A stretch of DNA of 64,000 nucleotides, from positions 1 to 64,000 of the forward strand of contig NZ_JAATVV010000010.1 in the NCBI RefSeq assembly GCF_013184775.1, given 5' to 3'. This document shows, in pieces, positions 15,062-56,047 of this stretch. The translations under genes and the position numbers were made by a program. The DNA is from Martelella sp. HB161492. GTDB taxonomy: Bacteria; Pseudomonadota; Alphaproteobacteria; Rhizobiales; Rhizobiaceae. Under the pieces are notes generated by a model. It did no database searches. It had not been told where the DNA came from and was given only the letters and a program-made list of their open reading frames with translations. Every line of letters starts with the position of its first letter. Position 1 is the first letter of the stretch.

Positions 15062-15096
15062 AGAGCCCGTGCGGAAACGCGCGGGCTCTCACTTTT
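15062..15096 (+). terminator. trxA terminator (inner copy)
   Basis: A 12-bp stem beginning AGAGCCCG and ending CGGGCTCT (15062-15089) with a GAAA loop, followed by CACTTTTG. A second hairpin with nearly the same stem and loop lies at 15299-15325, on the far side of the repeat element between them. Confidence 0.75.
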
Positions 15097-15298
15097 GATA
15101 AACCTACCTGCACGTTCAGACGTCATGCCTGTGCATGTCACAGGCATCCAGCCGCGATGCGTCGGCACGGCGAAAAACTCTCTTATTCCAATGCCGTGAA
15201 GAGCCTGGATCCCCGTGGACCAAGCACGGGGATGACGATGGGTGGAGTGGCTGTTCCAGCCCAAACAGGCAATCTGAATGACTTTGTCAGCAATCTGA
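15090..15298. repeat. RIME-like palindromic intergenic element, copy A
   Basis: One of four related elements. The left arm hairpin ATGCCTGTG/CACAGGCAT is at 15125-15147. The right arm hairpin ATCCCCGTG/CACGGGGAT is at 15209-15233. The two arms are inverted copies of each other. The right end reads GACTTTGTCAGCAATCTG, the inverse of the CAGATTGCTGACAAA end seen in other copies; the left end is degraded. Short reading frames through it (motifs such as MPVTSTGMT) are translated repeat, not genes. It resembles Rhizobium-specific intergenic mosaic elements. Confidence 0.8.
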
Positions 15299-15325
15299 CC
15301 CAGTGCGGAGACGCGCGGGCTTTTT
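15299..15325 (+). terminator. Terminator at the outer end of repeat copy A
   Basis: A GC-rich stem-loop (CCC-A-GTGCG / CGCGC-GGG, loop GAGA) followed by CTTTTT. It nearly repeats the trxA terminator at 15062-15089, including the segment ACGCGCGGGCT. Confidence 0.75.
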
Positions 15326-15426
15326 CATGTCCGCTCATTTGACTTCGCGCATTCGTCTTACGATCGCTTTTGAATTACACAGACTTGAGATATCGTCACT
15401 TCGCACACCACCACGACCGGTTTTCC

Positions 15427-17223
15427 ATGACAGACAATAGCGCGCTTCTCCGCGCCGATACGCTTGCCGCGTCGGCCCAAGACACCGAACAGCCGAACAG
15501 CCTGAAGGCGATCTTCAGGCCCTATCTTCCGCTGGTTCTGGTGCTGTTTGTCTGCCAGATCGGCCAGGCAGCGGCGATGCTGATGCTGCCGAACCTCTCC
15601 GCCGACGTGATTGACAAGGGCATTCTCGCCGATGATGTGCCGCATATTTTCCGCGTTGGCGGCATCATGCTTGCCGCAGCCTTCATCCAGCTGATCCTCA
15701 GCGCCGCGGGTGTTGCCATCGCCGCTCATATTGCCATGAGCGTCGGCCGCGACATCCGCCGCGCGCTGTTTTTCCGGGTCCAGAGCTTTTCGCTTGCCGA
15801 GCTGAACGGCTTTTCTATTCCCTCGCTGATCACCCGCAACACCAATGATGTGCAGCAGCTGCAGAACATGCTGGTGATGCTTCTGACCATGATCATGATC
15901 GCCCCGATCATCGGTTTCGGTGCGGCGATCATGGCGGTGCGCCAGGATGCCTCGCTGTCGCTGCTGCTGCTGGTCAGTGTTCCGATCCTGATCGTGACGG
16001 TCGGTCTGATCCTCGGCCGCACTTTACCGCTCTTCTCCCGCATGCAGGGCCAGATTGACCGGGTCAATGCCGTGCTGCGCGAACAGATTGACGGATTGCG
16101 GGTGATCCGCGCCTTTGTCCGCGACGAAACCGAGCAGCAGCGCTTTGCCACCGCCAATGATGCGCTGACCGGCACGGCGCTGAAAACCGGACGGCTGATG
16201 GCGCTCAATATGCCAGCCGTCGTCCTGGTGCTGCAGATGACCTCGGTTGCCGTGGTCTGGTTCGGGGCAGGGCGGATCGGCGCTGGCGCCATGCCGGTCG
16301 GCGCGCTGGTGGCGTTCCTGTCCTATATCGTCCAGATCATGATCTCGGTGATGATCGCCTCGATGCTGTTCGCCTTCGCACCACGCGCACTGGTTTCGGC
16401 CCGGCGCATTTCCGCCGTGCTGTCGGTCGAACCGGAAATCCGCGCACCGGCCGTGATCCGCCACCCGTCCGCCGATGCCCCGCTTTCGCTCAGCTTCAAT
16501 GCCGTCGACTTCGGCTATCCGGGTGCCGAACGCAGCGTTCTCAGCGATATTTCCTTCTCGCTCGAACCCGGCGAGACGGTTGGTATTATCGGTTCGACCG
16601 GATCCGGCAAATCGACGCTGATCAACCTGATCCCGCGTCTCTATGATGTCAGCGGCGGCAGCGTGACGATTGGCGGCGTTGATGTGCGCGACCGCGATCC
16701 TGATCTTTTGCGCCACGATATCGGCCTCGTGCCGCAAAAGGCCTTTCTGTTTTCCGGCACCATCGCCTCCAATCTGCGCTTCGGTGCGGCCGAGGCAAGC
16801 GACGAGGACCTCTGGCACGCGCTGGAGATTGCCCAGGCGCGCGACTTTGTCGAAAATCTGCCTGATCGCCTAGATGCACTGGTGGCGCAGGGCGGCGACA
16901 ATTTTTCCGGTGGCCAGCGCCAGCGTCTGACCATTGCCCGCGCTCTTGCCGCCAGGCCGAAAATCTATCTTTTCGACGACAGTTTCTCCGCGCTCGACTA
17001 TGCCACCGACCGGCGGCTGAGAACCGCGCTGGGGCCTGAAACCCGCAATGCGGCAACGCTGATTGTCGGGCAGCGCGTCGCAACACTGCAAAATGCCGAT
17101 CGGATCATTGTTCTCGACAATGGCCACATTGCCGGAATTGGCGGACATGAGGAACTGATGCGCACCACCCCGGCCTATGCCGAGATCGTCGCCTCCCAGA
17201 CACGCCGGGAGGGCGAGGAATGA
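15427..17223 (+). CDS. ABC exporter half-transporter, degenerate-site subunit
   Basis: A 598-residue type I exporter: a six-helix membrane domain (about residues 25-320) then a nucleotide-binding domain. Walker A is GSTGSGKST (Lys395) and the signature is FSGGQ (493-497). Walker B is LFDDS, so the catalytic Glu is replaced by Asp518, and the switch His is replaced by Gln549 (VGQRVAT). These changes mark the non-hydrolytic half of a heterodimeric exporter. The next gene overlaps by 4 bases (ATGA) and is the partner. The substrate is unknown; a multidrug or lipid-like compound is typical. The start at ATG 15427 lacks a clear ribosome site. Confidence 0.9.
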   Translation: MTDNSALLRADTLAASAQDTEQPNSLKAIFRPYLPLVLVLFVCQIGQAAAMLMLPNLSADVIDKGILADDVPHIFRVGGIMLAAAFIQLILSAAGVAIAAHIAMSVGRDIRRALFFRVQSFSLAELNGFSIPSLITRNTNDVQQLQNMLVMLLTMIMIAPIIGFGAAIMAVRQDASLSLLLLVSVPILIVTVGLILGRTLPLFSRMQGQIDRVNAVLREQIDGLRVIRAFVRDETEQQRFATANDALTGTALKTGRLMALNMPAVVLVLQMTSVAVVWFGAGRIGAGAMPVGALVAFLSYIVQIMISVMIASMLFAFAPRALVSARRISAVLSVEPEIRAPAVIRHPSADAPLSLSFNAVDFGYPGAERSVLSDISFSLEPGETVGIIGSTGSGKSTLINLIPRLYDVSGGSVTIGGVDVRDRDPDLLRHDIGLVPQKAFLFSGTIASNLRFGAAEASDEDLWHALEIAQARDFVENLPDRLDALVAQGGDNFSGGQRQRLTIARALAARPKIYLFDDSFSALDYATDRRLRTALGPETRNAATLIVGQRVATLQNADRIIVLDNGHIAGIGGHEELMRTTPAYAEIVASQTRREGEE

Positions 17224-19073
17224 GCGATAAACGCAACAATACGCAAAATCCGCCTGTCATTCCCCGACGCGGCCCTCCCGGTGCAGCCATGCATGCCTCC
17301 GGCGGCAAGCCGAAAAATACCGGCGCGGCGCTGAAGCGGACGACGGCTTTCCTGCTGCAGTCCAGAGTGAAGCTTGCGCTTGCCGTTTTCATGACCGCCA
17401 TCGCCGTGACGCTCTCCACGCTTGGCCCCTGGCAGCTTGGCAAGGCGACCGATCTGGTCGTCAGCTCCATGCTTGCGACGGGAACGGTCGATTTTGCCGG
17501 CATTGCCGTTCATCTTGTCATTGTCGCCATTCTCTATCTCGGCGCCTCGGCGCTCAACTGGCGCCAGGCCTGGCTGATCAATGATGTTGTCCAGTCGCTG
17601 AGCCGCAATCTGCGCCAGCAGGCGGAAAACAAGCTGTCGCGCCTGCCGCTGGCCTGGTTTGACCGCCAGCCTCACGGCGAGGTGCTCAGCCGTGTCACCA
17701 ACGATATCGACAATATCACCCAGAGCCTGCAGCAGCTGATGAGCCAGCTCCTGATGGCGACGCTGACACTGATCGGCGTGATCGTCATGATGCTGATCCT
17801 TTCGCCCATGGTCGCGCTGGTCGCACTCGCCGCACTTGCCCTTGCCGTCGTCATCACCCGACTTCTGGCGCGCAGGGCCCAGCCTGGCTTTGCCGGCCAG
17901 TGGCGCTATACCGGCGAGCTCAATGCCGAGGTGGAAGAGGCGTTTACCGGGCACACGCTGGTGCAGGTTTTCGGCCATCGCCGCCGCACCGAGGTGCGTT
18001 TCGAAAAAGCCAATCAGGCGCTGAAGGATCACGCGTTCCGCGCCCAGCTGATTGCCGGTGTGATCCAGCCGGTGAGCATGCTGGTCTCCAACCTTGCCTT
18101 CATCACCGTGGTCATCTTCGGCGCCCTGCGGGTCGTCGCTGGCGCCTTCTCCGTCGGTGAATTGCAGGCATTCATCCAATATATCCGTCAGACCGGCCAG
18201 CCGATCCAGCAGGTCGCCGGCATGGCAACCCTGGTGCAATCCGGTCTTGCCTCGGCGGAGCGTGTTTTCGAACTGCTCGACATGGATGAGATGCCGCCAG
18301 AGACGGATGCCCTTGCCGCGGCTGAGAAGCATAAGGGGCATGTTCGCTTTGAACATGTGCGCTTCCGTTATGAGAAGGACAAGCCGCTTTTCGAGGATGT
18401 GTCGCTGGAAGCACTGCCTGGCCAGACGGTTGCCATTGTTGGTCCGACGGGGGCGGGAAAGACGACGCTGGTCAACCTCCTGATGCGGTTCTACGAGGTC
18501 GATGGCGGGCAGATCCTGCTCGATGGGATCGATACGGCGAAAATCGCCAAGCCGGCGCTGAGACGCCAGTTCGGCATGGTGCTGCAGGATTCCTGGCTGT
18601 TTTCCGGCACATTGAAGGAAAATATCGCCTATGGCCGCCCCGATGCCAGTGATGATGAAATCATCGAGGCCGCGAAAGCCTGCCATGTCGATGGTTTTGC
18701 CAGCCTGCTTCCCGATGGCTATGCCACAGTGATGGATGAGACCGGCGGCGCACTCAGCGCCGGGCAGAAACAGCTGGTGACGATTGCCCGGGCCTTTTTG
18801 ATGCGCCCCGCCGTGCTGATCCTTGATGAAGCGACGAGCTCGGTTGATTCCCGCACCGAGCTTCTGGTGCAGCAGGCCATGAACCGCCTGCGCACCGGGC
18901 GGACCTCTTTCGTGATCGCCCACCGGCTTTCCACCATCCGTGACGCCGATGTCATCGCTTATATGGAAGGCGGCAATGTGGTGGAAAAGGGCAATCACAG
19001 CGCATTGCTGGCGGCAAAGGGACGCTATTTCCGCCTTTACCGCTCGCAGTTCGAACGCGCCGAGATGGCCTGA
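17220..19073 (+). CDS. ABC exporter half-transporter, catalytically competent subunit
   Basis: A 617-residue partner of the preceding gene. About 40 hydrophilic residues precede the membrane domain. The nucleotide domain has Walker A GPTGAGKTT (Lys414), Walker B LILDEATSSVD with catalytic Glu537, and switch His568 (IAHRLST). The signature is degenerate: LSAGQ (512-516) instead of LSGGQ. Because each ATP site combines Walker motifs of one subunit with the signature of the other, the two degenerate features fall in the same site, as in TM287/288 or BmrCD. It is translationally coupled to the upstream gene and ends tail to tail with the nitroreductase gene with no gap. Confidence 0.92.
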   Translation: MSDKRNNTQNPPVIPRRGPPGAAMHASGGKPKNTGAALKRTTAFLLQSRVKLALAVFMTAIAVTLSTLGPWQLGKATDLVVSSMLATGTVDFAGIAVHLVIVAILYLGASALNWRQAWLINDVVQSLSRNLRQQAENKLSRLPLAWFDRQPHGEVLSRVTNDIDNITQSLQQLMSQLLMATLTLIGVIVMMLILSPMVALVALAALALAVVITRLLARRAQPGFAGQWRYTGELNAEVEEAFTGHTLVQVFGHRRRTEVRFEKANQALKDHAFRAQLIAGVIQPVSMLVSNLAFITVVIFGALRVVAGAFSVGELQAFIQYIRQTGQPIQQVAGMATLVQSGLASAERVFELLDMDEMPPETDALAAAEKHKGHVRFEHVRFRYEKDKPLFEDVSLEALPGQTVAIVGPTGAGKTTLVNLLMRFYEVDGGQILLDGIDTAKIAKPALRRQFGMVLQDSWLFSGTLKENIAYGRPDASDDEIIEAAKACHVDGFASLLPDGYATVMDETGGALSAGQKQLVTIARAFLMRPAVLILDEATSSVDSRTELLVQQAMNRLRTGRTSFVIAHRLSTIRDADVIAYMEGGNVVEKGNHSALLAAKGRYFRLYRSQFERAEMA

Positions 19074-19670
19074 TCAATCCGCAACGATCCACCCCTCGGC
19101 GGCGACCTCGCCAAGCGCCCTGCGATTGCTCGGCACCTCGCGGGCCTGCAGCTTTTCCGGCAACGCCGTGACCGGGCCAAGCTTGCCGACGGCAAAGGCC
19201 ATGTTGACGCTATAATCATCCGAGAGCTTGAGGTATTCGGCAATCGCATCCTTTAGGATCCCGCCCATGCCATGTGTTTCATAGCCCATCATCTTGGCCT
19301 GCATTGCCGCCATGCCCCAGGCACAACCGGAATCGAAGGCATGGGTGGCAAGCGGCGTCGCTATACCCTCATGATTGATATAGGTCTTCTTCGAGACGAC
19401 AAAGACCAGCGCTGAAGCCCTTGAGGCCCAGACACGGTTTCCCTCCATCAGCAATTCCACGGCATCGGCAAAGAGCGGCGTGCCCTGCCGGAACCAGGCG
19501 AAGCGCCAGGGCTGATGATTGCTGGCCGACGGTGCCCAGTGGGCGGCATCAAGCACCGTCAACAGATCCTCCTCCGGCATCGCCTCGCCATTGAAGGCAC
19601 GCGGCGCCCAGCGGTTGAGAAACAGCGGGTCGATCGGATGTTCGGAGATGCGGTGATTGCTTTCGGTCAT
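19074..19670 (-). CDS. Nitroreductase family protein
   Basis: A 198-residue FMN-dependent oxidoreductase of the nitroreductase superfamily. The conserved N-terminal segment RWAPRAFNGEAMPEEDL, the motif HWAPSASNHQPWRF (FMN and substrate pocket) and the helix with GCAWGMAAMQAKMMGYETHGMGG are clear. The natural substrate is unknown. The first in-frame ATG is at 19670 (MTESNH); an upstream TTG at 19706 is less likely. The stop abuts the ABC exporter stop in convergent orientation. Confidence 0.88.
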   Translation of the reverse strand: MTESNHRISEHPIDPLFLNRWAPRAFNGEAMPEEDLLTVLDAAHWAPSASNHQPWRFAWFRQGTPLFADAVELLMEGNRVWASRASALVFVVSKKTYINHEGIATPLATHAFDSGCAWGMAAMQAKMMGYETHGMGGILKDAIAEYLKLSDDYSVNMAFAVGKLGPVTALPEKLQAREVPSNRRALGEVAAEGWIVAD

Positions 19671-19948
19671 GGGACGCGGCTTTCGTGTGACAATGACATT
19701 GAACAAAGATTGAAGTTGAAATCAGTGGATCCGGACGTTCAGTCAGAATGATAACCGGGGCTCATGCCAGATGAAACCCACATTGATTCCACGTCAAGGC
19801 TGGAATACGAGCCTATTTTCGCCCATATTCCTCGCTAATTCTGGAACCAGACGAATTTGACCGCGTTTGGCTTGAAGCTGATCTCGATCATCCCCAGTTA
19901 AAGCTTGTAGGCGGTAAAAACCGCTCCATGCAACCGAGGAAGAATGAG

Positions 19949-20371
19949 ATGAACGAAACGGCATTGCTACGTCCGGCATGGACCCCGCTGACGATCGCAT
20001 TGATGGTGATCGGCTTTGTGGTGTTCTGGCCTCTGGGGCTGGTCATGCTTGCCTATATCATCTGGGGAGATCGCTTCTATCGCCCCGGTGATGACTTCAG
20101 CCGGACTTCACGCCGGGCTTTCAGAGCCTGCAAGCGCCGTATGCGCGGCACCGGTGGACCAACGGCAAGAGACAGCGGCAACAGCGCCTTTGACGAATGG
20201 CGCCGGGCTGAAATGGATCGCATCGAGGAAGAGCGTCGCAAGCTTGACGAGATGCATGCGGAATTTGATGACTATATGCGGGAGCTGAGAAAAGCACGCG
20301 ACCGCGAGGAATTCGACCGCTTCATGAATGCCAGAAAGGCACGTGAAACGGGTCAAAATGGTAGCTTATAA
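19949..20371 (+). CDS. DUF2852 family membrane protein
   Basis: A 140-residue protein of unknown function found in alphaproteobacteria. One long hydrophobic segment (about residues 14-38: LTIALMVIGFVVFWPLGLVM) precedes the motif WGDRFYRPGDDF. A strongly charged C-terminal half (residues 75-130) is predicted to form a coiled coil. GAGGAAG 7 bases before ATG 19949 supports this start over the ATG at 19928. It ends in a strong terminator at 20406. A scaffold or envelope role is only a guess. Confidence 0.8.
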   Translation: MNETALLRPAWTPLTIALMVIGFVVFWPLGLVMLAYIIWGDRFYRPGDDFSRTSRRAFRACKRRMRGTGGPTARDSGNSAFDEWRRAEMDRIEEERRKLDEMHAEFDDYMRELRKARDREEFDRFMNARKARETGQNGSL

Positions 20372-20405
20372 GAACAATAAACCCCTCATAATGACCTCCA
20401 AAACC

Positions 20406-20443
20406 AGCTGATATCTCCATCCCTGCGAGATATCAGCTTTTTC
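20406..20443 (+). terminator. Intrinsic terminator of the DUF2852 gene
   Basis: A perfect 12-bp stem AGCTGATATCTC / GAGATATCAGCT with a 9-base loop, followed by TTTTTC. It isolates the DUF2852 gene from the next gene. Confidence 0.88.
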
Positions 20444-20570
20444 TTTGTCCGCTGATTTCGACATGTCAGAACGGAGCGCGACGACAGGCCCGTAGCGGAC
20501 CATTTTCCCTTTTGCAGAAATTGCTCTATTGATGGCGTGAAGAAGCCATTGCGAGAAAGGGCGGCTTTCC

Positions 20571-21305
20571 GTGGCAAAGGCCCAAGACAAGACACAGGCA
20601 CTCAGCGTTAACGGGCGCGAGGTTCCGCTGACCGTGAGGACCAGCCGGCGTGCCCGGCGCATGACGCTGAAGATTGAACCTGGCGGCTACGCGCTCAGTC
20701 TGACGCTGCCGCCGGGTCTGCCGCGTCGCGAGGTCGAGGCTTTTCTGACGCGCCATCACGACTGGCTGGCCGAAAGGCTGAAGCGCTTTCCAGGCGATGG
20801 CGGCGTCGTGGGCGAGGGCAGCATCGTGCCGATTGGCGGCGAGCGGCATCGCGTCTGCCACTCCGGCAGGCTGCGCGGTTTGACGGAGGCGGTTTCCGAA
20901 GGCGGCGAGCGGCTGTTGCGCGTTTCCGGCCCGAAAGAGGCGATCGGCCGCCGGGTTGCCGATTATCTGAAGAAGCAGGCCCGTCATGAGATCACCGAAA
21001 GGGTGAAGGTTCACGCGGCCGCAAGCGGCAAGCGCTTTGCCACGATCAGCTTCAAGGATACCAGAAGCCGCTGGGGCTCCTGCTCGGCTCGCGGGAACCT
21101 GAATTTCTCCTGGCGGATCGCCATGGCGCCGCCCCACGTGATCGACTATCTTGCCGCCCATGAAGTGGCGCATCTGACCGAGATGAACCACGGTCCTCGG
21201 TTCTGGGCATTGTGCGAAAGCCTTTGTCCCGATACAGCTTCGGCACGCGCCTGGCTTAAGGAACGTGGCACCTTGCTTCATGCATTGCGCTTCGAGGCGC
21301 AGTAA
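20571..21305 (+). CDS. YgjP-like (DUF45) zinc metallopeptidase-fold protein
   Basis: A 244-residue SprT/WLM-like protein. The zinc motif HEVAH (His197, His201) and a third ligand His207 in NHGPRFW are intact. The preceding RSRWGSCS segment is the family signature. The N-terminus has the RRARRMTLKI strand typical of YgjP. Members are predicted metal-dependent proteases of unsettled substrate, often called M48 family. The start is GTG 20571, with GAGAAAGGG 10-18 bases upstream. It lies 32 bases before trpF. Confidence 0.85.
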   Translation: MAKAQDKTQALSVNGREVPLTVRTSRRARRMTLKIEPGGYALSLTLPPGLPRREVEAFLTRHHDWLAERLKRFPGDGGVVGEGSIVPIGGERHRVCHSGRLRGLTEAVSEGGERLLRVSGPKEAIGRRVADYLKKQARHEITERVKVHAAASGKRFATISFKDTRSRWGSCSARGNLNFSWRIAMAPPHVIDYLAAHEVAHLTEMNHGPRFWALCESLCPDTASARAWLKERGTLLHALRFEAQ

Positions 21306-21337
21306 CAACGGATGAAAGAACCGGGGCATGCCCGGCC

Positions 21338-22015
21338 ATGGACAGGGACATGAGACGACCGGATATCAAGATTTGCGGACTGAGCACCCAAGCGGCAATC
21401 GACCAGGTGATTGCCCGCCATGCCAGCCATGTCGGCTTCATCTTCTTTGAAAAGAGCCCACGCCATGTGGAGCCGGATATTGCCGCAAGGCTGATCGAAC
21501 ATGTGCGCGGCCGGGCAAAGACCGTCGCCGTCACCGTCAATGCTGACAACGAGCTTCTCGAGGAAATCGTCTACGCAGCGCGCCCTGATTTCCTCCAGCT
21601 TCACGGCAGCGAAAGCCCAGAACGCGTGCTCACCGTCAAGGCGCTGTTCGGCCTGCCGGTGATCAAGGCATTTTCCGTCCGCACGGCTGATGATTTGATG
21701 TTCGTCAAAGAATATGATGGTATCGCCGACAAGGTTCTTTTCGACGCCAAACCGCCGAAAGGCGCCGATCTGCCGGGCGGCAACGGGGTTTCCTTCGATT
21801 GGCGCTTGCTAGAGGGGCTTTCGGAGAATATCGACTATTTCCTGTCCGGCGGACTAAACGCCGACAATGTGGCGGAAGCCCTGACGCGCACCGGCGCGCG
21901 GGCGCTGGATGTTTCCTCGGGTGTGGAAAGCGCGCCCGGTGTGAAGGATCCGGCCCGCATCGATGCTTTTTTTGATGCCGTGGAAAAGGCGCTTGCCCGC
22001 CCCGCAACGGCCTGA
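21338..22015 (+). CDS. trpF: Phosphoribosylanthranilate isomerase
   Basis: A 225-residue TIM barrel that converts N-(5-phosphoribosyl)anthranilate to CdRP in tryptophan synthesis. The active-site Cys is in DIKICGL near residue 13 and the general acid Asp is in VLFDAKPP. The phosphate-binding segments [10 protein letters not shown] and [10 protein letters not shown] are present. ATGs at 21338 and 21350 are both possible. It is first of the trpF-trpB-orf-trpA cluster; trpB starts about 10 bases after its stop. Confidence 0.95.
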
Positions 22016-22025
22016 TGGAATGGAG

Positions 22026-23252
<1,227 letters not shown>

Positions 23253-23255
23253 AAT

Positions 23256-27048: not shown

Positions 27049-27070
27049 AGGCGGCTCGCTTGAGCCGCCT
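27049..27070 (+). terminator. folC stem-loop (inner copy)
   Basis: A perfect 9-bp stem AGGCGGCTC / GAGCCGCCT with loop GCTT, preceded by AAAA, 30 bases after folC. It has no U-tract on its 3' side; the repeat element begins immediately with CAGATTGCTGACAAA. The same stem recurs at 27285-27306 with a different loop. Confidence 0.6.
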
Positions 27071-27284
27071 CAGATTGCTGACAAACCTCGCCCCTTCTGC
27101 TGATGTCATGCCTGTGCTTGTCACAGGTATCCAGCCGACGCGCATCCGCGCGGCGAAAGAACTTTTCTATTCAATGCCTTATGAATCTGGATCCCCGTGA
27201 CAAGCACAGGGATGACGACGGAGGGGCGGCCATTCATTCCATCCACCCCGAACAGTCAATCTGAACGACTTTGCCAACAGTCTG
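27071..27284. repeat. RIME-like palindromic intergenic element, copy B
   Basis: A 214-bp element with imperfect terminal inverted repeats: CAGATTGCTGACAAA at the left and the complement of CAGACTGTTGGCAAA at the right (12 of 15 match). Inner hairpins are ATGCCTGTG/CACAGGTAT (27108-27130) and ATCCCCGTG/CACAGGGAT (27191-27213). The two inner arms are inverted copies of each other around a GC-rich centre. No gene is present in this 317-base gap between folC and gyrB. Confidence 0.85.
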
Positions 27285-27309
27285 AGGCGGCTCTGCCGAG
27301 CCGCCTTTT
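27285..27309 (+). terminator. folC terminator at the outer end of copy B
   Basis: The stem AGGCGGCTC / GAGCCGCCT is identical to the one at 27049-27070 but with loop TGCC, followed by TTTTC. It also ends 28 bases from the convergent gyrB stop. Confidence 0.85.
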
Positions 27310-46551: not shown

Positions 46552-46570
46552 AAATATTATTTACAGTATA

Positions 46571-47617: not shown

Positions 47618-47789
47618 CGCTCGTCCCTGTTGTCCTGCCGGCTCTGGGACAGGAGGATGATCGCTCTTTTGGAGCCGCAATGGCTCCTGATGTGATCGGC
47701 CCGACGATACTCCTTTAGCCTTAAGCGGCCAAATGGCTGAGGCTTTCTATCCACATATGAGCGTGCCGGAGCGGCAGACTGACAAAAGC
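47618..47789. other. Region upstream of holA
   Basis: No gene. A small hairpin GGAGCC-GCAAT-GGCTCC (47671-47687) sits about 55 bases before the holA start, on the leader side. The rest may hold a holA promoter. Confidence 0.4.
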
Positions 47790-47809
47790 GGCAGATCCCA
47801 AGATCTGCC
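47780..47809 (-). terminator. Leftward terminator at the outer end of repeat copy C
   Basis: The stem GGCAGATC / GATCTGCC (47790-47809) is followed on the minus strand by GCTTTTG. It lies downstream of lptE and beyond the repeat element. The same stem occurs at 47991-48016 with a different loop. Confidence 0.65.
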
Positions 47810-47990
47810 CGCAGGCTGCTGACAAAGCTTGCGCTTTTCGCTGACGTTATGCCTGTGCTTGTCACAGGCATCCAGCCGACGCGCGTCCGCGCGGCGAAAG
47901 ACAATAGTCGTCCGGTGTCGTGAAGAGCCTGGATCCCCGTGACGAGCTCGGGGATGACGAGAGATGCCACCACCCGAAACGGACATTCTG
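47810..47990. repeat. RIME-like palindromic intergenic element, copy C
   Basis: A 181-bp member of the family. The left end is CAGGCTGCTGACAAA; the right end is shortened to ACATTCTG. Inner hairpins are ATGCCTGTG/CACAGGCAT (47848-47870) and ATCCCCGTG/CTCGGGGAT (47933-47955). It lies inside the leuS-lptE-holA gene run, between lptE and holA. Confidence 0.82.
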
Positions 47991-48016
47991 AGGGGCAGAT
48001 CGTCAGATCTGCCCCT
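47991..48016. other. Stem-loop at the inner end of copy C
   Basis: A perfect 11-bp stem AGGGGCAGATC / GATCTGCCCCT with loop GTCA, 31 bases after the lptE stop (leftward). No U-tract follows on either strand. The stem repeats that at 47790-47809 (loop CCAA). Confidence 0.65.
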
Positions 48017-48047
48017 GAAATCCGGGTCGAATGGCTGTCGCGGGGCG

Positions 48048-48644
48048 TCAGTTGGCCGGGGCTGCCGCAGATGCAGGTGGCGGCAGCACGCCTGCCGCGG
48101 GCTGTGCCGCGGCTTCCTTGGTGAGCGCAATTGCAAGATCAGCATTGATCAGCTCGGCGACGTCCTTTGCCGCACGATTTTCAGCATCGCGGATTGCGCG
48201 CAGCTTGGCATATTCCTGCGACGGGAAGTCGAGCAATGCGATCGATCTGCGCGTACCGGAGGTCAAGAGCTTGTTGTCGGAAACGCGGCGCATCGCATAA
48301 TTGGCGACCACAATCGTTCGGCCGGCATCAGCCGTATCGGAATTGTCCTCCACCAGCACGTCCGACGTCGCTGCATAGGCACTGACGTCGACACGGTAGA
48401 GCGGATTGGCGCTTTCGCCCTTGCCGCGACCGCTCAGAAAGATCAGCTGGTTCTCCACCTGTTGCGCCACGCGTGTTGTCGGCGTGTTGTAGGCGATTGC
48501 AGCCATGTTTTCGCTGAGCGCCTTGCCCTGGCTTCCGCCGTAAAGCGGGCGCACCTGGCAGGCCGAAAGGCCGGCAGCGGCACCAAGAAGAACCAGGGAG
48601 ATAAGGCTGGTACGGGCAGTTCGGGCAAAGCGGTCAGACAACAA
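48048..48644 (-). CDS. lptE: LPS-assembly lipoprotein LptE
   Basis: A 198-residue outer-membrane lipoprotein that plugs LptD for lipopolysaccharide export. The signal peptide ends in lipobox LSAC (Cys29). The mature start CQVRPLYGG is the signature of alphaproteobacterial LptE. The tail is Ala/Pro-rich. No ATG is available: the start is TTG 48644 (or TTG 48641), overlapping the end of leuS by 11 bases, so translation is probably coupled. Its position between leuS and holA matches that of LptE in most proteobacteria. Confidence 0.9.
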
Positions 48645-51270
48645 CGTTCACAATCCTTTGCGGCACGACGATCAGCTTCTTCGGCGCCTTGCCATCCAGC
48701 GCCTTGATAACGGCATCAAGGGCCAGAACCGCGGCCTTGATATCATCCTGGCTGGCGTCGCGTGATACGGTCAGTTCCGCACGTTTCTTGCCATTGATCT
48801 GTACCGGCAGCAGCACATCATTGTCCGCTGTCAGCGCTGCATCAAAGACCGGCCAGGATGCCCGGGCGATGATATCCTCTCCGCCGAGCACCTTCCAGCA
48901 TTCTTCGGCCAGATGCGGCATCATTGGTGCAAAACACTGCGTCAGGAACAGGCTCGCCTGCTTTGCCGCTGCCGCCATGTCGGGGCTGGCCTTGCCGGTG
49001 GCAATCTCGCTCAGCGGTGCTGCCAGGACATTGACGAGCTCATAGATGCGCGCAATCGCCTTGTTGAAGGCCAGATTGTCGAGATCGTCGCTGATGGCCT
49101 TGACGGTCTTGTGGGCGGCGCGCGAGATTTCCAGCGCCTTTCCGTTCGTGCCGGCGGCGGGTGTCACGCCCTCAAGCGCCGGAGCGGCTTCGGAAATCAG
49201 CCGCCAGATGCGTTGGACGAAGCGGAACGTGCCCTGCACACCGGCTTCGGTCCAGACCACGTCGCGGTCGGGCGGCGAATCCGAGAGAACGAAGAAGCGA
49301 GCGGTATCGGCGCCATAGGTTGCGAGAATGTCGTCGGGATCGATGACGTTTTTCTTCGACTTCGACATCTTCTCGATCGCGCCGATGGCGACGTCCTCGC
49401 CGGTCGCGGTCAGCACGGCGCGGCGTCCGTTCTCATCCTCGGTGATCGTCACATCGGTCGGCGACACCCAGCTGCCATTGGTGCCGGAGCCGCCGAGACG
49501 ATAGGTCTCGTGGACCACCATGCCTTGGGTGAACAGGCCCTTGAACGGCTCGTCGATGCCGACATGGCCGGTTTCCTTCATCGCCCGGGTGAAGAAGCGC
49601 GAATAGAGCAGATGCAGGATCGCATGTTCGATACCGCCGATATACTGGTCGACCGGAAGCCAGTGATTGGCGATCTTCGGGTCGGTCGGCGTGTCTTCCC
49701 AGGGCGCAGTGAAGCGGGTGTAGTACCAGCTCGAATCGACGAAGGTATCCATCGTGTCGGTCTCGCGCCGGGCGGGCTTGCCGCAGCACGGGCAGGCGAC
49801 GTGGCGCCAGCTCTCGTGGCGGTCGAGCGGATTGCCCGGCTTGTCGAAGGTGACATCGTCGGGCAGCTTCACCGGCAGATCGGATTTCGGCACGGGCACC
49901 ACGCCGCAGTCATCGCAATGGATGACCGGGATCGGGCAGCCCCAGTAGCGCTGGCGCGAAATGCCCCAGTCACGCAGGCGGAAATTGACCTTGCGCGTAC
50001 CGCGCGGGGAACCGGCAAGCATGTCGGTTTCCAGCTTTTTTGCCACCGTTTCAAAGGCATCGTCCGTAGACATGCCGTCGAGGAAGCCGGAATTGATCAT
50101 CACGCCATCATCGGTGAAGGCTTCGTCGCCGATTTCAAATGTCGCGGCATCGCCATCCTTCGGCATGACGACAGGTGTGACCTTCAGGCCGTATTTGCGG
50201 GCGAAGTCGAGGTCGCGCTGGTCGCCGGCCGGGCAGCCGAAGATCGCGCCCGTGCCGTAGTCCATCAGCACGAAATTGGCGACATAGACCGGCAATTCCC
50301 AGGACGGATCAAAGGGGTGCCGCACGGTCATGCCGGTGTCGATGCCCTTTTTCTCAGCGGTTTCAAGCGCTGCGAGCGAGGTGCCGGCACGGCGGGTCTC
50401 GTCACAGAAGCTGGCGACCTTCTCGTCGTGCTTTGCGGCTTCCCTTGCCAGCGGATGGTCGGCGGCAATGGCGAGGAAGGAGGCGCCGAACAGCGTGTCG
50501 GGGCGGGTCGTATAGACCGTCACCTCGTCGAGATCACCGGCCTTGCCGGCCTTGTCGGCGATTTCCCAGCGCACGGCCATGCCTTCGGAACGGCCGATCC
50601 AGTTTTTCTGCATCAGCCGGACCTTTTCCGGCCAGTGGTCGAGCGTGTCGAGCGCGTCGAGCAGATCCTGGGCAAAATCGGTGATCTTGAAGAACCACTG
50701 GGTCAGCTCGCGCTGTTCCACGAGCGCGCCGGAGCGCCAGCCGCGGCCCTCGATGACCTGCTCATTGGCGAGCACGGTCATGTCGACCGGATCCCAGTTG
50801 ACCTTCGACTGCTTGCGGTAGACCAGCCCCTTTTCCATCATGTCGAGGAAGAGTGCCTGCTGGCGCTGGTAATATTCGACATCGCAGGTCGCGAATTCAC
50901 GCGCCCAGTCGAGCGAAAGCCCCATGGATTTCAATTGCCCGCGCATGGTGGCGATGTTCTGGTAGGTCCAGTCCTTGGGGTGGACCTTGTTCTGCATCGC
51001 GGCGTTTTCGGCCGGCATGCCGAAGGCGTCCCAGCCCATCGGATGCAGCACGTTGAAGCCGCGGGCGCGCTTGTAGCGGGCGACGACATCGCCCATCGCA
51101 TAGTTGCGCACATGGCCGATATGAATGCGCCCGGATGGATAGGGGAACATTTCTAGGACGTAGTACTTTTCCCGCGTCTCATCATTCTCGGTCTTGAAAA
51201 CCTCGTCGGCGGCCCATTTCTGCTGCCATTCGGGTTCGACTTTGCGGGGGTTGTAACGTTCGCTGGCCAT
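48634..51270 (-). CDS. leuS: Leucyl-tRNA synthetase
   Basis: An 878-residue class I synthetase that charges tRNA-Leu. The HIGH motif is at residues 50-53 ([12 protein letters not shown]) and KMSKS at about 634-638 (EKMSKSKKN). The zinc-binding-type insertion ([12 protein letters not shown]...[12 protein letters not shown]), the CP1 editing domain and the C-terminal anticodon-recognition region are present. The start is ATG 51270. It is first of the leftward run with lptE and holA. Confidence 0.98.
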
Positions 51271-51492
51271 ATCGGTGTAACTTTATTCCTGTCGCTCGAT
51301 TGCGGGCTGAGCTTCACCACGAAAGACGAGAGGCGTCAAGCAAATCAGGCCGTTTTCAGGGGATCGGCAGGCTTTGCAGGGCGCCGTGGCCAAGTGTGGC
51401 GTTGAAAGGTAAGGCAGGGCGTGGTTGATTGCAGCCGGCTGCTTCGCTTCGCGTGGCAGATATAATGCGGATGACGGGAAAGGAAAAGACCG

Positions 51493-52164
51493 ATGGGTGT
51501 GACGGAAAACCTCAAGACTGTGCGCGACACCATCGCTGCTGCCGCCCATGAGGTCGAACGGCCGGAGGGTTCAGTGACCCTTGTTGCCGTGTCCAAGACC
51601 TTCCCCGTTGACGATATCCGCCCCGTTCTTGCCGCCGGCCAGCGGGTCTTCGGTGAAAACCGGGTTCAGGAGGCCGAGGCCAAATGGCCGGTCCTGCGCC
51701 AGGAAACCGATGGCATCGAACTGCATCTGATCGGGCCGCTCCAGTCCAACAAGGCGGCGGAAGCGGTGGCGCTTTTTGATGTGATCGAAACCGTTGACCG
51801 GGAAAAGATCGCCCGCGCTCTGGCCAAGGAAATCGAGAAGCAGGGCCGGCATCCGAAGCTGTTTGTTCAGGTCAATACCGGCAACGAGCCGCAGAAGGCG
51901 GGCATTGATCCGCGTGAAACGGCCGATTTTCTGGCGCTGTGCCGCGACGAGCTGAAGCTTGCGATCGAGGGGCTGATGTGCATTCCGCCGGTTGATGAAA
52001 ATCCCGGACCGCATTTCGCCCTGCTTGCTGATCTTGCCCGCGAAAACGGCCTTCACAAGCTCTCGATGGGCATGTCGTCGGATTATCAGATTGCTGTTGC
52101 CTTCGGCGCCACCCATGTGCGTGTCGGTTCGGCCATTTTCGGCCATCGCGACTATCCGGCCTGA
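51493..52164 (+). CDS. YggS-family pyridoxal phosphate homeostasis protein
   Basis: A 223-residue single-domain PLP-binding TIM barrel (YggS/PLPBP/PROSC). The PLP lysine is Lys35 in LVAVSKTFP, and GENRVQEAEAKW, HLIGPLQSNKA, LSMGMSSDY and RVGSAIFG are the family motifs. It has no known enzymatic reaction; it keeps free PLP and amino/keto acid pools in balance. It is divergent from leuS and monocistronic, ending in a GC hairpin. Confidence 0.94.
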   Translation: MGVTENLKTVRDTIAAAAHEVERPEGSVTLVAVSKTFPVDDIRPVLAAGQRVFGENRVQEAEAKWPVLRQETDGIELHLIGPLQSNKAAEAVALFDVIETVDREKIARALAKEIEKQGRHPKLFVQVNTGNEPQKAGIDPRETADFLALCRDELKLAIEGLMCIPPVDENPGPHFALLADLARENGLHKLSMGMSSDYQIAVAFGATHVRVGSAIFGHRDYPA

Positions 52165-52178
52165 GGACAGGTTTTGAC

Positions 52179-52203
52179 CGGCACGCGGAAGGCCCGCGTG
52201 CCG
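52179..52203. terminator. Hairpin between convergent yggS and the SDR gene
   Basis: A perfect 10-bp stem CGGCACGCGG / CCGCGTGCCG with a 5-base loop, between two stop codons. U-tracts are weak on both strands. Confidence 0.55.
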
Positions 52204-52210
52204 AAAGGGT

Positions 52211-53101
52211 TCACGTCGTGAAGTAATAGTCCTCGGCGAGGTCTGAGAGCAGGGTCTTTTCAACCGGCTGCCAGCCGAGTTTCGCGCGGGTGAGGGCGCT
52301 TGAGGCGCGGCTGTTCATCATCGCGAAATGGGTGAACATGCCATAATAGGCCTCTGCCTCTTCAGCCGAAATGCTCTTCACCGGAACGCCAAGGCCCTTG
52401 CCGATGGCCGAGGCGAGGTCGCGCATGGCAATGCCTGTCTCCGCCACGGCGTGGAAACGGTCACCGGCTTCGCCCTTTTCCAGGGCCAGGGTGAAGACCT
52501 TCGCTGCATCGAGCCGATGGCCCGCTGCCCAGCAATTGCCACCGTCGCCGACATAGGCTGCATGGCCTTTTTCGCGGGCGATATTGATCAGCCAGGGGGT
52601 GAAACCATGATCGCCCCTGCCATGGGTGGTCGGCGGCAGGCGGACGATCATGGCCCGCACATTCTTGTCCAGCCCGGCAAAGCTGGCCTTTTCCGAAATC
52701 CGCGGGAATCCCGTGTTTTCCGGGGCCATCATCTCTTCCGTTGCCAGTTCGCTTGTCTGCAGCACCCCGGTTCCGGAGGTGGCGATGAAGGGCTTGCCAG
52801 TGCCTGAAAGCGCATCCACCATGGCGGCAATGGCCTTGCCGTCAATGGCGCAGTTCTCGGCGAAATGGGCGAAATCATGAATGAAGGCCGTGTGGATCAC
52901 GCCATCGGCGGCAGCGGCCGCCTCGGCCAGAAGATCATAGTCCTCGATCGTGCCGCGCAGCACTTTCGCGCCAGCGGCCTCAATCTTTGCGGCGGCGCCA
53001 TCGGAGCGGGCAAGACCGGTCACGTCATGGCCGGCGGCAACAAGCGCGGCCACGGTCGGCGTTCCGACCCAGCCAGAGGCTCCGGTTACAAAAACACGCA
53101 T
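52211..53101 (-). CDS. NAD(P)-dependent epimerase/dehydratase-like extended SDR
   Basis: A 296-residue Rossmann-fold protein. The cofactor motif GASGWVG (residues 7-13) follows MRVFVT. The substrate domain contains HGRGDHGF and WAAGHRLDAAKVF. Related proteins are annotated as nucleoside-diphosphate-sugar epimerases, but this one acts on an unknown substrate. It is divergently transcribed from an AraC-family gene across a palindrome-bearing gap, which suggests control by that regulator. Confidence 0.82.
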   Translation of the reverse strand: MRVFVTGASGWVGTPTVAALVAAGHDVTGLARSDGAAAKIEAAGAKVLRGTIEDYDLLAEAAAAADGVIHTAFIHDFAHFAENCAIDGKAIAAMVDALSGTGKPFIATSGTGVLQTSELATEEMMAPENTGFPRISEKASFAGLDKNVRAMIVRLPPTTHGRGDHGFTPWLINIAREKGHAAYVGDGGNCWAAGHRLDAAKVFTLALEKGEAGDRFHAVAETGIAMRDLASAIGKGLGVPVKSISAEEAEAYYGMFTHFAMMNSRASSALTRAKLGWQPVEKTLLSDLAEDYYFTT

Positions 53102-53135
53102 GGTGAAATCATCCTGTCAGTCGTTTCGGTAAATT

Positions 53136-53149
53136 CATCGGATCCGATG
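53136..53149. promoter_or_regulatory. Palindrome in the SDR/araC divergent promoter
   Basis: A perfect 14-bp palindrome CATCGGATCCGATG, flanked by the outer pair ATCCTG (53111) and CAGGAT (53154). It sits between the divergent SDR and AraC-type genes and is a candidate operator. Confidence 0.45.
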
Positions 53150-53228
53150 CTTGCAGGATAGGGGGCGGAGGCGATACGATCTATGCGTTGTCGTCCGTAT
53201 TTCTTTCGCAATCGTCCGGAGACTGGTT

Positions 53229-54137
53229 ATGGATCCCCTGTCTGACGTCCTGTCGCTGTTGCAGGTGAAGAGCTATATGTTTGGTGGTTTCGAAGTTGGC
53301 GGACCCTGGTCTGTCAGCTATGGCGGCCATAAGGGTATCAAATGCTATGGTATTACCAGCGGCGCCTGCTTTCTGGCTGTGGAGGGGGCGGGCGCGCCCG
53401 TCCGGCTGGTTGAAGGCGATCTTTTTATCCTGCCGCGCGGCCTGCCTTTCCGCCTGGCGACGGATCTTGATCTTGAGCCGGTTGATTTCCGCGAATTTCT
53501 CAAACGCCCGGCGGATGGCGGCGTATTGATGATCAATGGCGGTGGTGATTTCGGCATGATCGGCGGACATTTTGCCATCGCCGGCGGAAGTGCCGGCATG
53601 CTCATCGATGTTCTGCCACCCGTCGTTCACATCAACCGGCAAGATGATCGTGAGGCATTCCTGTGGTCGATTGCGCGCATGCGCCAGGAGCTTGCGGAAC
53701 CGCGCCCGGGTTCGTTTCTGATGGGCGAACATATGGCGCATATGCTGCTGCTGCAGGCTTTGCGCGCCTATCTGGTGGGCAATCAACATCGTGATGCCGG
53801 CTGGCTTTCAGCCTTGAGCGATCCGCAGATCGGCGCGGCGATCGGCGCCATTCATGCTGATCCGTCCCGACGCTGGAGGCTTGCCGGACTGGCGGAGCAG
53901 GCGGGCATGTCGCGCTCCTCCTTTGCCGAGCGCTTCCGGCTGCTGGTCGGATCAACGCCGATGGATTATCTGACGCGCTGGCGCATGCTGCTGGCGGCCG
54001 ACCGGCTGAAGAGCGCAAAGGAACCGGTGGGGCAGATCGCGCTGTCGCTTGGCTACGAGTCCGAGGCTGCCTTTTCCACCGCCTTCAAGCGCGTCATGGG
54101 CACATCACCGCGCCAGCATGAGCACACAGCCGCCTGA
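53229..54137 (+). CDS. AraC-family transcriptional regulator with cupin-type sensor
   Basis: A 302-residue regulator. The N-terminal cupin-like domain (about residues 1-185; GDLFILPRGLPF is the core) belongs to the group found in RclR-like regulators. The C-terminal double helix-turn-helix (about 200-300) has WRLAGLAEQAGMSRSSFAERFR and PVGQIALSLGYESEAAFSTAFKR. The start at ATG 53229 follows CGGAGA. It probably regulates itself and the divergent SDR gene. It is convergent with the OYE gene. Confidence 0.88.
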   Translation: MDPLSDVLSLLQVKSYMFGGFEVGGPWSVSYGGHKGIKCYGITSGACFLAVEGAGAPVRLVEGDLFILPRGLPFRLATDLDLEPVDFREFLKRPADGGVLMINGGGDFGMIGGHFAIAGGSAGMLIDVLPPVVHINRQDDREAFLWSIARMRQELAEPRPGSFLMGEHMAHMLLLQALRAYLVGNQHRDAGWLSALSDPQIGAAIGAIHADPSRRWRLAGLAEQAGMSRSSFAERFRLLVGSTPMDYLTRWRMLLAADRLKSAKEPVGQIALSLGYESEAAFSTAFKRVMGTSPRQHEHTAA

Positions 54138-54150
54138 TGCGACGCAGAAA

Positions 54151-54168
54151 GGGCGGCTGACGCCGCCC
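54151..54168. terminator. Hairpin between convergent araC-type and OYE genes
   Basis: A 7-bp stem GGGCGGC / GCCGCCC with loop TGAC, preceded by AAA on the plus strand, so the minus strand reads into TTTCTG. It is a moderate terminator for the leftward gene. Confidence 0.5.
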
Positions 54169-54180
54169 CGATCATGTCCG

Positions 54181-55308
54181 TCAGTAAAGCTCGGCCAGTG
54201 TTTCACGTGAAAAGGCTTCGAGCTTGTCGGTCTCGCCGTTCTTCACCTTTTTCACCCATTCCGGGTCCTTGATCAGCGCCCGGCCGACGGCGATCAGGTC
54301 GAATTCGTCCTTTTCCATCCGTTCCACCAGATTGGTGATCTCTTCGGCTGAGGCCGCCGTCTGCTGGCCGCCGAACGAGCCGAGGAAGTCGGCGCCGGAA
54401 AGGCCGAGCGAGCCGACCGAAATCGTCGGGACGCCGGTGATCTTCTTGGCCCAGCCGGCAAAGTTCAGACCCTTTTCGCCGTCGATTTCGGCAAATTCCG
54501 GTTCCCAGAAGCGACGCTGCGAGCAATGGAGAATATCAACGCCTGCATCGACCAGCGGCTCCAGCCATTCGGCCATCTCATCCGGATTGCTGGCGATACG
54601 GGCCTTGTAATCCTGCTGCTTCCACTGGCTGAGCCGCATGATCACCGGCATGTCGTCCGATACGGCAGCGCGAACCGCCTTTGCGACCTCAACGGCGAAG
54701 CGGACGCGTTCGGAAATCGATGCGCCGCCCCATTTGTCTTCACGCAGGTTCAGCGGTGCCCAGAAGAACTCGTCGATCAGATAGCCATGGGCTCCGTGGA
54801 TTTCGACAACGTCGAAGCCCAGCCGCTCGGCATCGGCGGCGGCTTTGGCAAAGGCTGCGATCGTATCGGCGATATCGGCGTCACTCATGGCGCGGCCGCG
54901 CGGCTTGCCGGGCGCAACAAGGCCGGAGGGGCTTTCCGTCTGGTCGGGATCGGGAAAGTCCGGGCTGTTGATGGTCGGGCCGACATGCCAGATCTGCGGG
55001 CCCATCCGGCCACCGGCGGCGTGGACCGTGTCGATGACATTTTTCCAGCCGGCCAGTGCCTTTTCGCCGTAAAAATCCGGGATGTTCGGATGGTTCTTCG
55101 AGGTCGGGCGGTCAATCACCGTGCCTTCAGACAGGATCAGCCCCACGTCGTTTTCAGCGCGGCGGCGGTAATAATCGGCGACATTGCTGCCGGGCACGCC
55201 TTCCGGCGAGAACTGGCGCGTCATCGGCGCCATCACAAAACGGTTCTTCAGGTTCAGTTTTTTGAAGCTGAAGGGTCTGAAAAGCGTGTCAACGGAGCTG
55301 GTCGGCAT
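54181..55308 (-). CDS. Old Yellow Enzyme family NADH:flavin oxidoreductase
   Basis: A 375-residue FMN-dependent alkene reductase (NemA/OYE-like TIM barrel). The segments LKNRFVMAPMTRQFSPEG, QIWHVGP, VEIHGAHGYLIDEFFWAPLNLREDKWGG and the phosphate-binding VGSLGL/AVGRALIKDPEW are diagnostic. Such enzymes reduce activated double bonds and nitro compounds. It is divergent from an HxlR regulator with an operator between them, so it is probably induced by electrophiles. A parS-like 16-mer lies in its C-terminal codons (54199-54214). Confidence 0.92.
   Translation of the reverse strand: MPTSSVDTLFRPFSFKKLNLKNRFVMAPMTRQFSPEGVPGSNVADYYRRRAENDVGLILSEGTVIDRPTSKNHPNIPDFYGEKALAGWKNVIDTVHAAGGRMGPQIWHVGPTINSPDFPDPDQTESPSGLVAPGKPRGRAMSDADIADTIAAFAKAAADAERLGFDVVEIHGAHGYLIDEFFWAPLNLREDKWGGASISERVRFAVEVAKAVRAAVSDDMPVIMRLSQWKQQDYKARIASNPDEMAEWLEPLVDAGVDILHCSQRRFWEPEFAEIDGEKGLNFAGWAKKITGVPTISVGSLGLSGADFLGSFGGQQTAASAEEITNLVERMEKDEFDLIAVGRALIKDPEWVKKVKNGETDKLEAFSRETLAELY
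54199..54214. promoter_or_regulatory. parS-like site (14/16) inside the OYE gene
   Basis: TGTTTCACGTGAAAAG differs from parS only in the last two bases. It is in the C-terminal codons (FSRET) of the flavin oxidoreductase, 10 kb from parAB. Confidence 0.5.
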
Positions 55309-55340
55309 GGGAGAACCTCGAAATTGGTTTGAACAGGCCT

Positions 55341-55361
55341 TAGGTATAAATTATAAACCTA
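55341..55361. promoter_or_regulatory. HxlR operator candidate
   Basis: A 21-bp A/T-rich palindrome with arms TAGGT and ACCTA around ATAAATTATAA, in the divergent OYE/HxlR promoter. A further half-site CAGGTATA lies at 55388-55395, just before the HxlR ribosome site. Confidence 0.65.
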
Positions 55362-55410
55362 GTGTCAATAAGGCACTTTTACGCACCCAGGTATAGGCGA
55401 GGAAACCACC

Positions 55411-55791
55411 ATGGATCGATATCAGCCGGACAGCTGCCCGCAATTTGATGTGTCCTGCCAGTCGCGTGCGATCCTTGACGAGATTTCGGGCAAATGGTCG
55501 ATCATGGTTCTGGCGGTGCTGGCCTATGGGCCGCAGCGTTTCAACGGGCTGAAGCGGCGGCTGGACGGCATTACCCAGAAGGCGCTGACCCAGACGCTGA
55601 GGCGCCTGGAGCGCAATGGCCTTGTCTCGCGCAGCGTGATCGATACATCGCCGGTGGCGGTCGAATATGCGCTGACACCGCTCGGCGCATCGCTGAAATC
55701 GCTCTATTGCGCCCTTTACGGCTGGACCATCGACAACCGCATCGAGATCGATGAAGCGCGGCGGCGTTTCGATGAGAAAAATGCCGCCTGA
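55411..55791 (+). CDS. HxlR-family winged-helix regulator
   Basis: A 126-residue HxlR-type winged helix. The core LDEISGKWSIMVLAVLAYGPQRFNGLKRRLDGITQKALTQTLRRLERNGLV is diagnostic. Cysteines at residues 9 and 16 (SCPQFDVSCQSRA) could sense electrophiles or thiol stress, as in other members. It is divergent from the OYE gene across the operator. A GAGGAAA ribosome site precedes ATG 55411. Repeat copy D with hairpins follows the stop. Confidence 0.92.
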   Translation: MDRYQPDSCPQFDVSCQSRAILDEISGKWSIMVLAVLAYGPQRFNGLKRRLDGITQKALTQTLRRLERNGLVSRSVIDTSPVAVEYALTPLGASLKSLYCALYGWTIDNRIEIDEARRRFDEKNAA

Positions 55792-55800
55792 AATGAAAAA

Positions 55801-55818
55801 AGGGCCCGAACGGGCCCT
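55801..55818. terminator. Terminator hairpin at the left end of copy D
   Basis: The perfect palindrome AGGGCCCGAACGGGCCCT, preceded by AAAAA so that it ends in a U-tract on the minus strand. It is identical to the hairpin at 56027-56044. Confidence 0.8.
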
Positions 55819-56026
55819 CAGGTTGCTGACGAACCTTGCCCCTTTTTGCCGACGTCATGCCTGTGCTTGTCACAGGCATCCAGCCGACGCGCGTCCGCGC
55901 GGCGAAAGAATCCGTCTATTCAATATGTTATGAATCTGGATCCCCGTGACAAGCACGGGGATGACGACGGAGGGAGGGGCTATTTCACCCCAAACAGGCA
56001 ATGTGAACGAATTTGTCAGCAGACTA
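55819..56026. repeat. RIME-like palindromic intergenic element, copy D
   Basis: A 208-bp family member. The left end CAGGTTGCTGACGAA is the imperfect inverse of the right end TTTGTCAGCAGACTA. Inner hairpins are ATGCCTGTG/CACAGGCAT (55857-55879) and ATCCCCGTG/CACGGGGAT (55940-55962), both perfect. The GC-rich centre holds GACGCGCGTCCGCGCG. It lies between the convergent hxlR-type and trcR genes. Confidence 0.87.
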
Positions 56027-56047
56027 AGGGCCCGAACGGGCCCTTTT
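56027..56047 (+). terminator. Terminator hairpin at the right end of copy D
   Basis: AGGGCCCGAACGGGCCCT followed by TTTG, an exact duplicate of the hairpin at 55801-55818. Confidence 0.85.

Follow-up and report, generated by a model that had tools for sequence, protein, structure and literature searches.

How does a short mobile element come to lie between two copies of the same hairpin, when the hairpin itself changes from one copy of the element to the next? This question is raised by a 64,000-nucleotide stretch of the draft genome of Martelella sp. HB161492 (contig NZ_JAATVV010000010.1, positions 1 to 64,000; hereafter the window), which holds four copies, A to D, of a repeat of about 208 bp. 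The original prediction had described them as RIME-like (Rhizobium intergenic mosaic element) repeats, each inserted next to an existing terminator with duplication of the whole hairpin. The analysis reported here indicates that A to D are almost certainly miniature inverted-repeat transposable elements (MITEs) with the ends of an insertion sequence (IS) of the IS1182 family, and that they obey, together with that IS, a rule by which the target hairpin is duplicated.

Results

The four elements of the window and their empty sites

All four copies are bracketed, as had been proposed, by hairpins that match within the copy, and the stems of A, B, C and D are mutually unrelated. Copy A comprises an intact left hairpin (15062..15089; hairpins are given without strand), a 208-bp body with a decayed left end (15090..15297, + strand) and a right duplicate with a decayed 5' arm, followed by a T-tract (15299..15321). 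In copy B, a 22-bp left hairpin (AGGCGGCTCgcttGAGCCGCCT, 27049..27070) precedes a body of 214 bp (27071..27284, +) and a right hairpin with an altered loop (AGGCGGCTCtgccGAGCCGCCT, 27285..27306), after which a T-tract follows. Copy C, whose body boundaries were set by eye, runs from a left hairpin with the loop CCAA (47790..47809) through a shorter body without the right terminal stretch (47812..47990, +) to a right hairpin with the loop GTCA and no T-tract after it (47992..48015). The 208-bp body of copy D (55819..56026, +), common to the window and to the sister species G007, separates two identical hairpins (AGGGCCCGAACGGGCCCT, 55801..55818 and 56027..56044). The element ends read CAGxxTGCTGACAAA and TTTGTCAGCAxxCTG, those at the left of A and the right of C being decayed or missing. 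Decayed copies were bounded by fuzzy matching, some of them wrongly, and the caller placed the right end of C inside its hairpin. The stem-loops had been located just outside the ends; the hairpins are indeed there, but the element end mostly abuts the hairpin foot directly (offset 0 on the left in 40 of 47 copies and on the right in 41 of 47). No Rfam family matched within the window at the gathering threshold.

Copies B and D share one layout, that is, an A-rich stretch, a hairpin, the element, a hairpin and a T-rich stretch, so that the left hairpin has no T-tract of its own, the element beginning there, and the right hairpin no A-tract of its own. Of these outer tracts, A has only the right T-tract and C has neither.

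The state of the sites before insertion was examined by comparison with G007, which is empty at A, B and C and carries one hairpin at each of them. The empty site B of G007 reads AAAAAGGCGGCTCGCTTGAGCCGCCTTTTT, identical to the left copy of the window including its loop. The reverse comparison, which covered positions 5000-64999 of G007 contig C55, revealed three places at which G007 has an insertion between two hairpins and the window is empty: 6292..6378, with one partly decayed hairpin, and 54116..54204 and 63846..63934, with one hairpin each (no strand assigned). A single hairpin was thus seen, by eye, in the empty allele at all six sites of the compared stretch. Together with the matching of hairpins within copies, these data bear out the proposed insertion with duplication of the whole hairpin.

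Site D is occupied in both species, and seven outgroup loci show, by eye, one G+C-rich hairpin between the same genes, with an additional, unrelated second hairpin in one of them (L079). At site B, where outgroups have other neighbours, one hairpin was found by eye after folC in four of six loci (L090-L093) and nothing clear in L094 and L095. When 40 relatives, 12 of them of the same genus, were searched with the body at E 1e-15, it was matched only in its own genome and in G007. As to the hairpins of D itself (window 55801-56044; G007 L061), left and right are equal within each species and one loop base differs between the species, a pattern that points either to homogenisation between left and right or to events that were independent.

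The repeat family in the genome

Candidate copies were gathered by a BLAST search with the body of D, in which 40 of 78 candidates were scored and 67 matches obtained, by an end pattern with at most two mismatches (79 matches in the genome vs 4 for the reversed control) and by a core pattern (97 matches vs 0 for the control), and the stretches were then fetched. Counting fragments, the family of about 208 bp amounts to 63 distinct profile matches in its own draft genome and 20 among the fetched loci of G007. Both ends could be called, with flanks, in 71 copies, 52 from the own genome and 19 from G007. Of these 71 copies, 58 had a hairpin within 3 nt of the left element end, 55 had one equally close to the right end and 47 had one at each end, and flanks shuffled with retention of base composition, not of dinucleotides, gave hairpins on both sides in 1 of 1420 cases.

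Left and right sides match far better within copies than between copies. For 33 of 43 own copies the two flanks matched each other above the 99th percentile of pairs drawn from different copies; because flank alignment alone is weak on decayed copies, hairpin-based tests were added, and the own right hairpin proved to be the best partner of the left one among all 47 right hairpins in 38 of 47 copies. The proposed target, an existing terminator, stood in part. By a 4-of-6 rule, 11 of the 47 two-hairpin copies have both an A-rich and a T-rich outer tract and 24 have one of them, but 12 have neither, and not all targets look like terminators now. Twenty of the 30 MITE copies examined lie between convergent genes, according to a crude gene call.

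In five MITE copies (L012, L018, L028 and L031 of the own genome and L069 of G007) one flanking hairpin is inverted with respect to the other, as in the loop pair GAGATGATC vs GATCATCTC, which is perhaps the outcome of template switching within the palindrome. Four such flips had also been called for the IS described below, of which L149, L165 and L202 actually have perfect direct duplications; the flip test was misled where the palindrome extends into the A/T tracts, and a test limited to the hairpin leaves the five MITE copies. Paired, adjacent elements were observed in L065 (G007, ~1255-1712) and L003 (own genome, ~1269-1714). By eye, L065 has two elements interleaved with three related hairpins, as would be expected had the later insertion used a duplicated hairpin.

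Divergence of stems and loops

According to the original prediction, only the loop had been freed from constraint after the duplication. With hairpins required on both sides, divergence between left and right was 4% in stems and 16% in loops. Since this requirement conditioned the result, the comparison was also run with a hairpin required on one side only, and stems then differed by 6-6.5% and loops by 17-18% (31 and 33 copies, identity 60% or higher), with some bias left because pairs below 60% identity were dropped. Loops therefore do differ more, but stems change too and five copies carry an inverted hairpin, so that the claim is only partly right. Stems closer to each other than loops are as expected if pairing is kept, and there is little sign of compensatory change, 1 of 238 stem pairs being changed on both sides.

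An autonomous IS1182-family element with the same ends

A scan of 199 genomes of the host's family with the end pattern disclosed an inward-facing pair of ends about 1.47 kb apart in genome G047 (L096), enclosing two IS1182-type transposase frames and flanked on both sides by the same hairpin, with a single base difference between its copies. An intact IS was present in genome G057 at two loci (L117 and L121), identical over 1527 bp, each with a perfect duplication of its own hairpin (21 and 20 bp), the two hairpins being unrelated; both loci have matches in Rhizobium ecuadorense (L127 and L128). The transposases of L116, L117 and L121 score 477.6-478.1 bits with NCBIfam NF033551 (IS1182), the cut-off being 270, and the terminal inverted repeats of the IS read CAGAC[C/T]GCTGACAAA at both ends. 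MITE and IS share the CAGxxTGCTGACAAA ends, which diverge beyond about 16 bp, and both are accompanied by target duplications of the same kind.

A scan of named genomes yielded 520 confirmed stretches, of which 80, nearly all from alphaproteobacteria by title, were kept. Both ends and flanks were available for 51 of the 80 IS loci, and the other 29 were cut by contig ends or had no called end; the 51 are separate insertions, not separate genomes (ten are from Mesorhizobium sophorae and five from Brucella oryzae). One hairpin is repeated at both ends in 42 of the 51. On each side, 49 of the 51 flanks had a hairpin flush with the element, compared with 44 of the 702 control positions taken 50-400 nt upstream. 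A stricter duplication rule was passed by 37 of the 51 loci, with lengths of 18-28 bp; six or more of the seven outermost positions are paired in 33 of these 37 duplications (0.5% when shuffled), and this outer pairing was reached in none of the 37 when the duplication window was slid by 1-3 nt. An A-rich stretch before or a T-rich stretch after the duplication also accompanies 33 of the 37.

Evidence on duplication length was also provided by M. sophorae, in which nine IS copies, the reference counted, show zero mismatch over 1551 bp and lie in nine different hairpins. The duplications measure 19-24 bp in eight of these copies and 9 bp in L161, in which a longer match is stopped by one mismatch. 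Identical IS copies are therefore associated with duplications of differing length, and it is the target, not the element, that sets this length.

In the draft genomes G045, G108, G146 and G181, which come from other members of the family, contigs break close to the IS, the end motif lying some 75-230 bp from the edge, and the IS copy number may be underestimated there.

Reach of the rule within the IS1182 family

Relatives of the IS are likewise flanked by a repeated hairpin, which measures 18 bp for a Sphingobium relative (80% transposase identity), 20 bp, by eye, for a Salinivibrio relative (59%) and 22 bp for a Macrococcoides relative (41%). A different picture emerged from another, more distant branch of the family, with ISShsp2- and ISCfr1-like transposases and TGTTGAAAAA-type ends, in which six loci (L211-L215 and L231) showed 0-5 bp repeated and no hairpin pair. 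At the single ISEfa7 locus the ends could not be located. Over the loci compared, the hairpin-duplication rule is therefore not family-wide, and target behaviour splits within IS1182.

Discussion

Proposed mechanism

In transposition by DDE enzymes the element is joined to the target through its 3' ends, and a target duplication means that the two joints are staggered, a scheme also set out in PMC5678879. At the level of sequence, the present data establish the family of the element, the shared ends, the single hairpin of empty sites, a duplication equal to the hairpin and a length that the hairpin sets. We consider it quite probable that the explanation as a whole holds, namely that an IS1182-family transposase inserts at the feet of a hairpin and thereby duplicates it. 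An IS1182-family transposase acting on CAGxxTGCTGACAAA ends would move the A to D MITEs, and its target is palindromic DNA, in many cases a Rho-independent terminator located where convergent genes meet. Because the duplication equals the hairpin, each strand would be joined to one element end at the hairpin's 5' foot; the staggered joint would then span the entire hairpin, and gap repair would leave one copy on either side. If the cruciform is extruded, both foot phosphates would lie at one four-way junction for any stem length, and bringing the feet together in this way would explain the variable duplication length obtained from one enzyme. Recognition of the target as an extruded cruciform, to which the symmetry and the variable length point, seems the likelier case. 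That a DDE transposase uses the four-way junction of the cruciform and joins at its two 5' feet, as a natural and widespread form of the hypothetical pathway b discussed below, spreading without destroying terminators, has in our opinion a chance only a shade better than even.

Alternative explanations

Two of the alternatives concern the origin of the hairpin pair. Had the element landed between two pre-existing terminators of convergent genes, its frequent position between such genes (20 of the 30 copies examined) would be accounted for; nevertheless, the chance of this is practically negligible, since the single hairpin at all six empty sites refutes it for the sites compared, the hairpins match within and not between copies, and identical IS copies are found with different hairpins. 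It is very improbable, too, that the hairpins are a diversifying part of the element or were made alike by gene conversion after the insertion, because the hairpin stays without the element at empty sites, which refutes this origin there, even though the equality of left and right at D in each species, with one base different between the species, would be in agreement with it.

The other two accept the duplication and differ on what is recognised. Sequence-led staggered cutting, at a short motif on each strand (such as AAG cut after its first A) with flexible spacing, which palindromes would offer on both strands, would be consistent with the bases around the 74 cut sites, where position -1 is A in 57, position +1 is A in 61 and position +2 is G or C in 63. 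We regard it as unlikely: G or C occupies +1 at 13 of the 74 sites, the duplications are palindromic well inside their ends, they vary from 18 to 28 bp and yet keep to the stem foot, and one IS gives several lengths. The target might instead be the termination event, that is, an RNA hairpin, a stalled polymerase or an R-loop rather than a DNA cruciform. The tracts beside 33 of the 37 strict IS duplications and the MITEs between convergent genes speak for such a target, which nonetheless appears doubtful, as neither tract is present at four IS sites (L129, L148, L150 and L203) and 12 of the two-hairpin MITE copies, and joints placed symmetrically at the two feet, one per strand, are most easily explained on DNA.

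Several observations weigh against insertion at hairpin feet by an IS1182-family transposase, or against its generality. No match to the transposase model NF033551 was obtained in either of two drafts, the own genome and G007 (E 1e-20; 1e-10), and the enzyme that moved the MITE is thus missing from these drafts; among 13 genomes of the genus searched, one (G008) had a full-length IS1182 transposase gene, its element ends being of the other branch, and G001, G006 and G012 had partial matches. Twenty-four of the 71 MITE copies fall below the two-hairpin threshold, many of them with one decayed hairpin by eye and two, L226 and L229, with nothing clear, and the orientation test on all 71 gave 49 direct duplications, 18 ambiguous or none and 4 flipped. 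The copies with neither outer tract (12/47 for the MITE and 4/37 for the IS) and the six loci with TGTTGAAAAA-type ends belong here as well. Nine of the 51 IS loci (L131, L133, L158, L173, L201 and others) are without the same hairpin at both ends; most of them have a different flush hairpin on each side, and recombination between IS copies may have produced them. The duplication of L196 is asymmetric within a longer palindrome. Finally, the preference for A at the cut sites is such that structure alone may not decide the target.

Consequences for termination and annotation

The length of the target duplication is normally read as characteristic of the transposase. In the present case a single transposase gives several lengths, and it is the target structure that sets them, so IS1182 elements without a constant duplication length may still have a duplication. 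At sites with both tracts, a transcript arriving from either side would meet a hairpin without a tract, then the element and then a hairpin with a T-tract. Judged from this arrangement, each transcript may again meet a hairpin with its own T-tract, and termination on both strands may be kept. Such kept termination may explain why the insertions are tolerated, and offers a possible reason for the presence of the element in dozens of terminators that it does not disable. Paired hairpins also call for caution in annotation, as they need not represent two independent terminators. The insertions collected here would constitute a record, in sequence, of structure-directed transposition at scale.

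Comparison with known systems

RIMEs are listed in PMC2573895 among intergenic repeats of unknown function, and the MITE review PMC10969869 names neither IS1182 nor RIME. The MITE resembles a RIME in being an intergenic palindromic repeat, and its core resembles repeats of Sinorhizobium and Rhizobium plasmids: it matches 123 plasmid records (65 Sinorhizobium, 53 Rhizobium), none of which covers 80% of the query, the 20 matches listed being confined to bases 27-155 of the query (210 bases long), with identities of 71-79%, and the best places in 74 of the 123 records reaching 80-95%. The IS1182 ends and the hairpin pair of the MITE were not seen in four rhizobial core repeats read by eye for CAGxxTGCTGACAAA ends and flanking hairpins. 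The designation RIME-like applies at most to the inner core, and the ends belong to an IS1182-type transposon. Core repeats without IS1182 ends were observed on Sinorhizobium, Agrobacterium and Rhizobium plasmids (L217-L220), and the MITE may have captured such a core.

Group IIC introns also target terminator hairpins. They do so by means of a ribozyme and a reverse transcriptase and are not known to leave a target duplication, in which they differ from the element described here.

The closest known systems are IS1272 and TnSha1, which are placed in the IS1182 family and insert at stem-loops that have no sequence in common and are often terminators (PMC5678879 and PMC4923244). The IS of this study belongs to the same family, as judged by the match to NF033551 and by its terminal inverted repeats, and it likewise targets stem-loops that are often terminators. 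The same two sources credit the Siguier review with palindrome targeting by some IS1182 members, and a 2025 paper on T. kivui describes IS1182-related enzymes as recognising sequence or structure and acting with or without duplication or deletion (PMC12056078). In Wan et al. (2017), duplication of the whole stem-loop is drawn as a hypothetical pathway b (Fig 13), a different route, with removal of the stem-loop, is proposed for IS1272, and the targets are non-palindromic in 3 of 13 older copies and unclear in 3 (PMC5678879). In our search of open papers, with ISfinder and TnPedia outside it, no report of whole-hairpin duplication by the IS1182 family was recognised. On insertion of IS1272 the target stem-loop is removed wholly or partly and no duplication arises, according to PMC5678879 and PMC4923244, and the TnSha1 targets reported by Furi et al. 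(2016) are hairpins, several of them terminators, with partial deletion (PMC4923244). Stem-loop replacement of the IS1272 type does not describe the IS studied here, which duplicates the whole hairpin in 42 of the 51 loci, and termination, unlike at IS1272 insertions, is possibly kept on both strands where both tracts are present. One and the same family thus contains elements that remove their target hairpin and elements that duplicate it.

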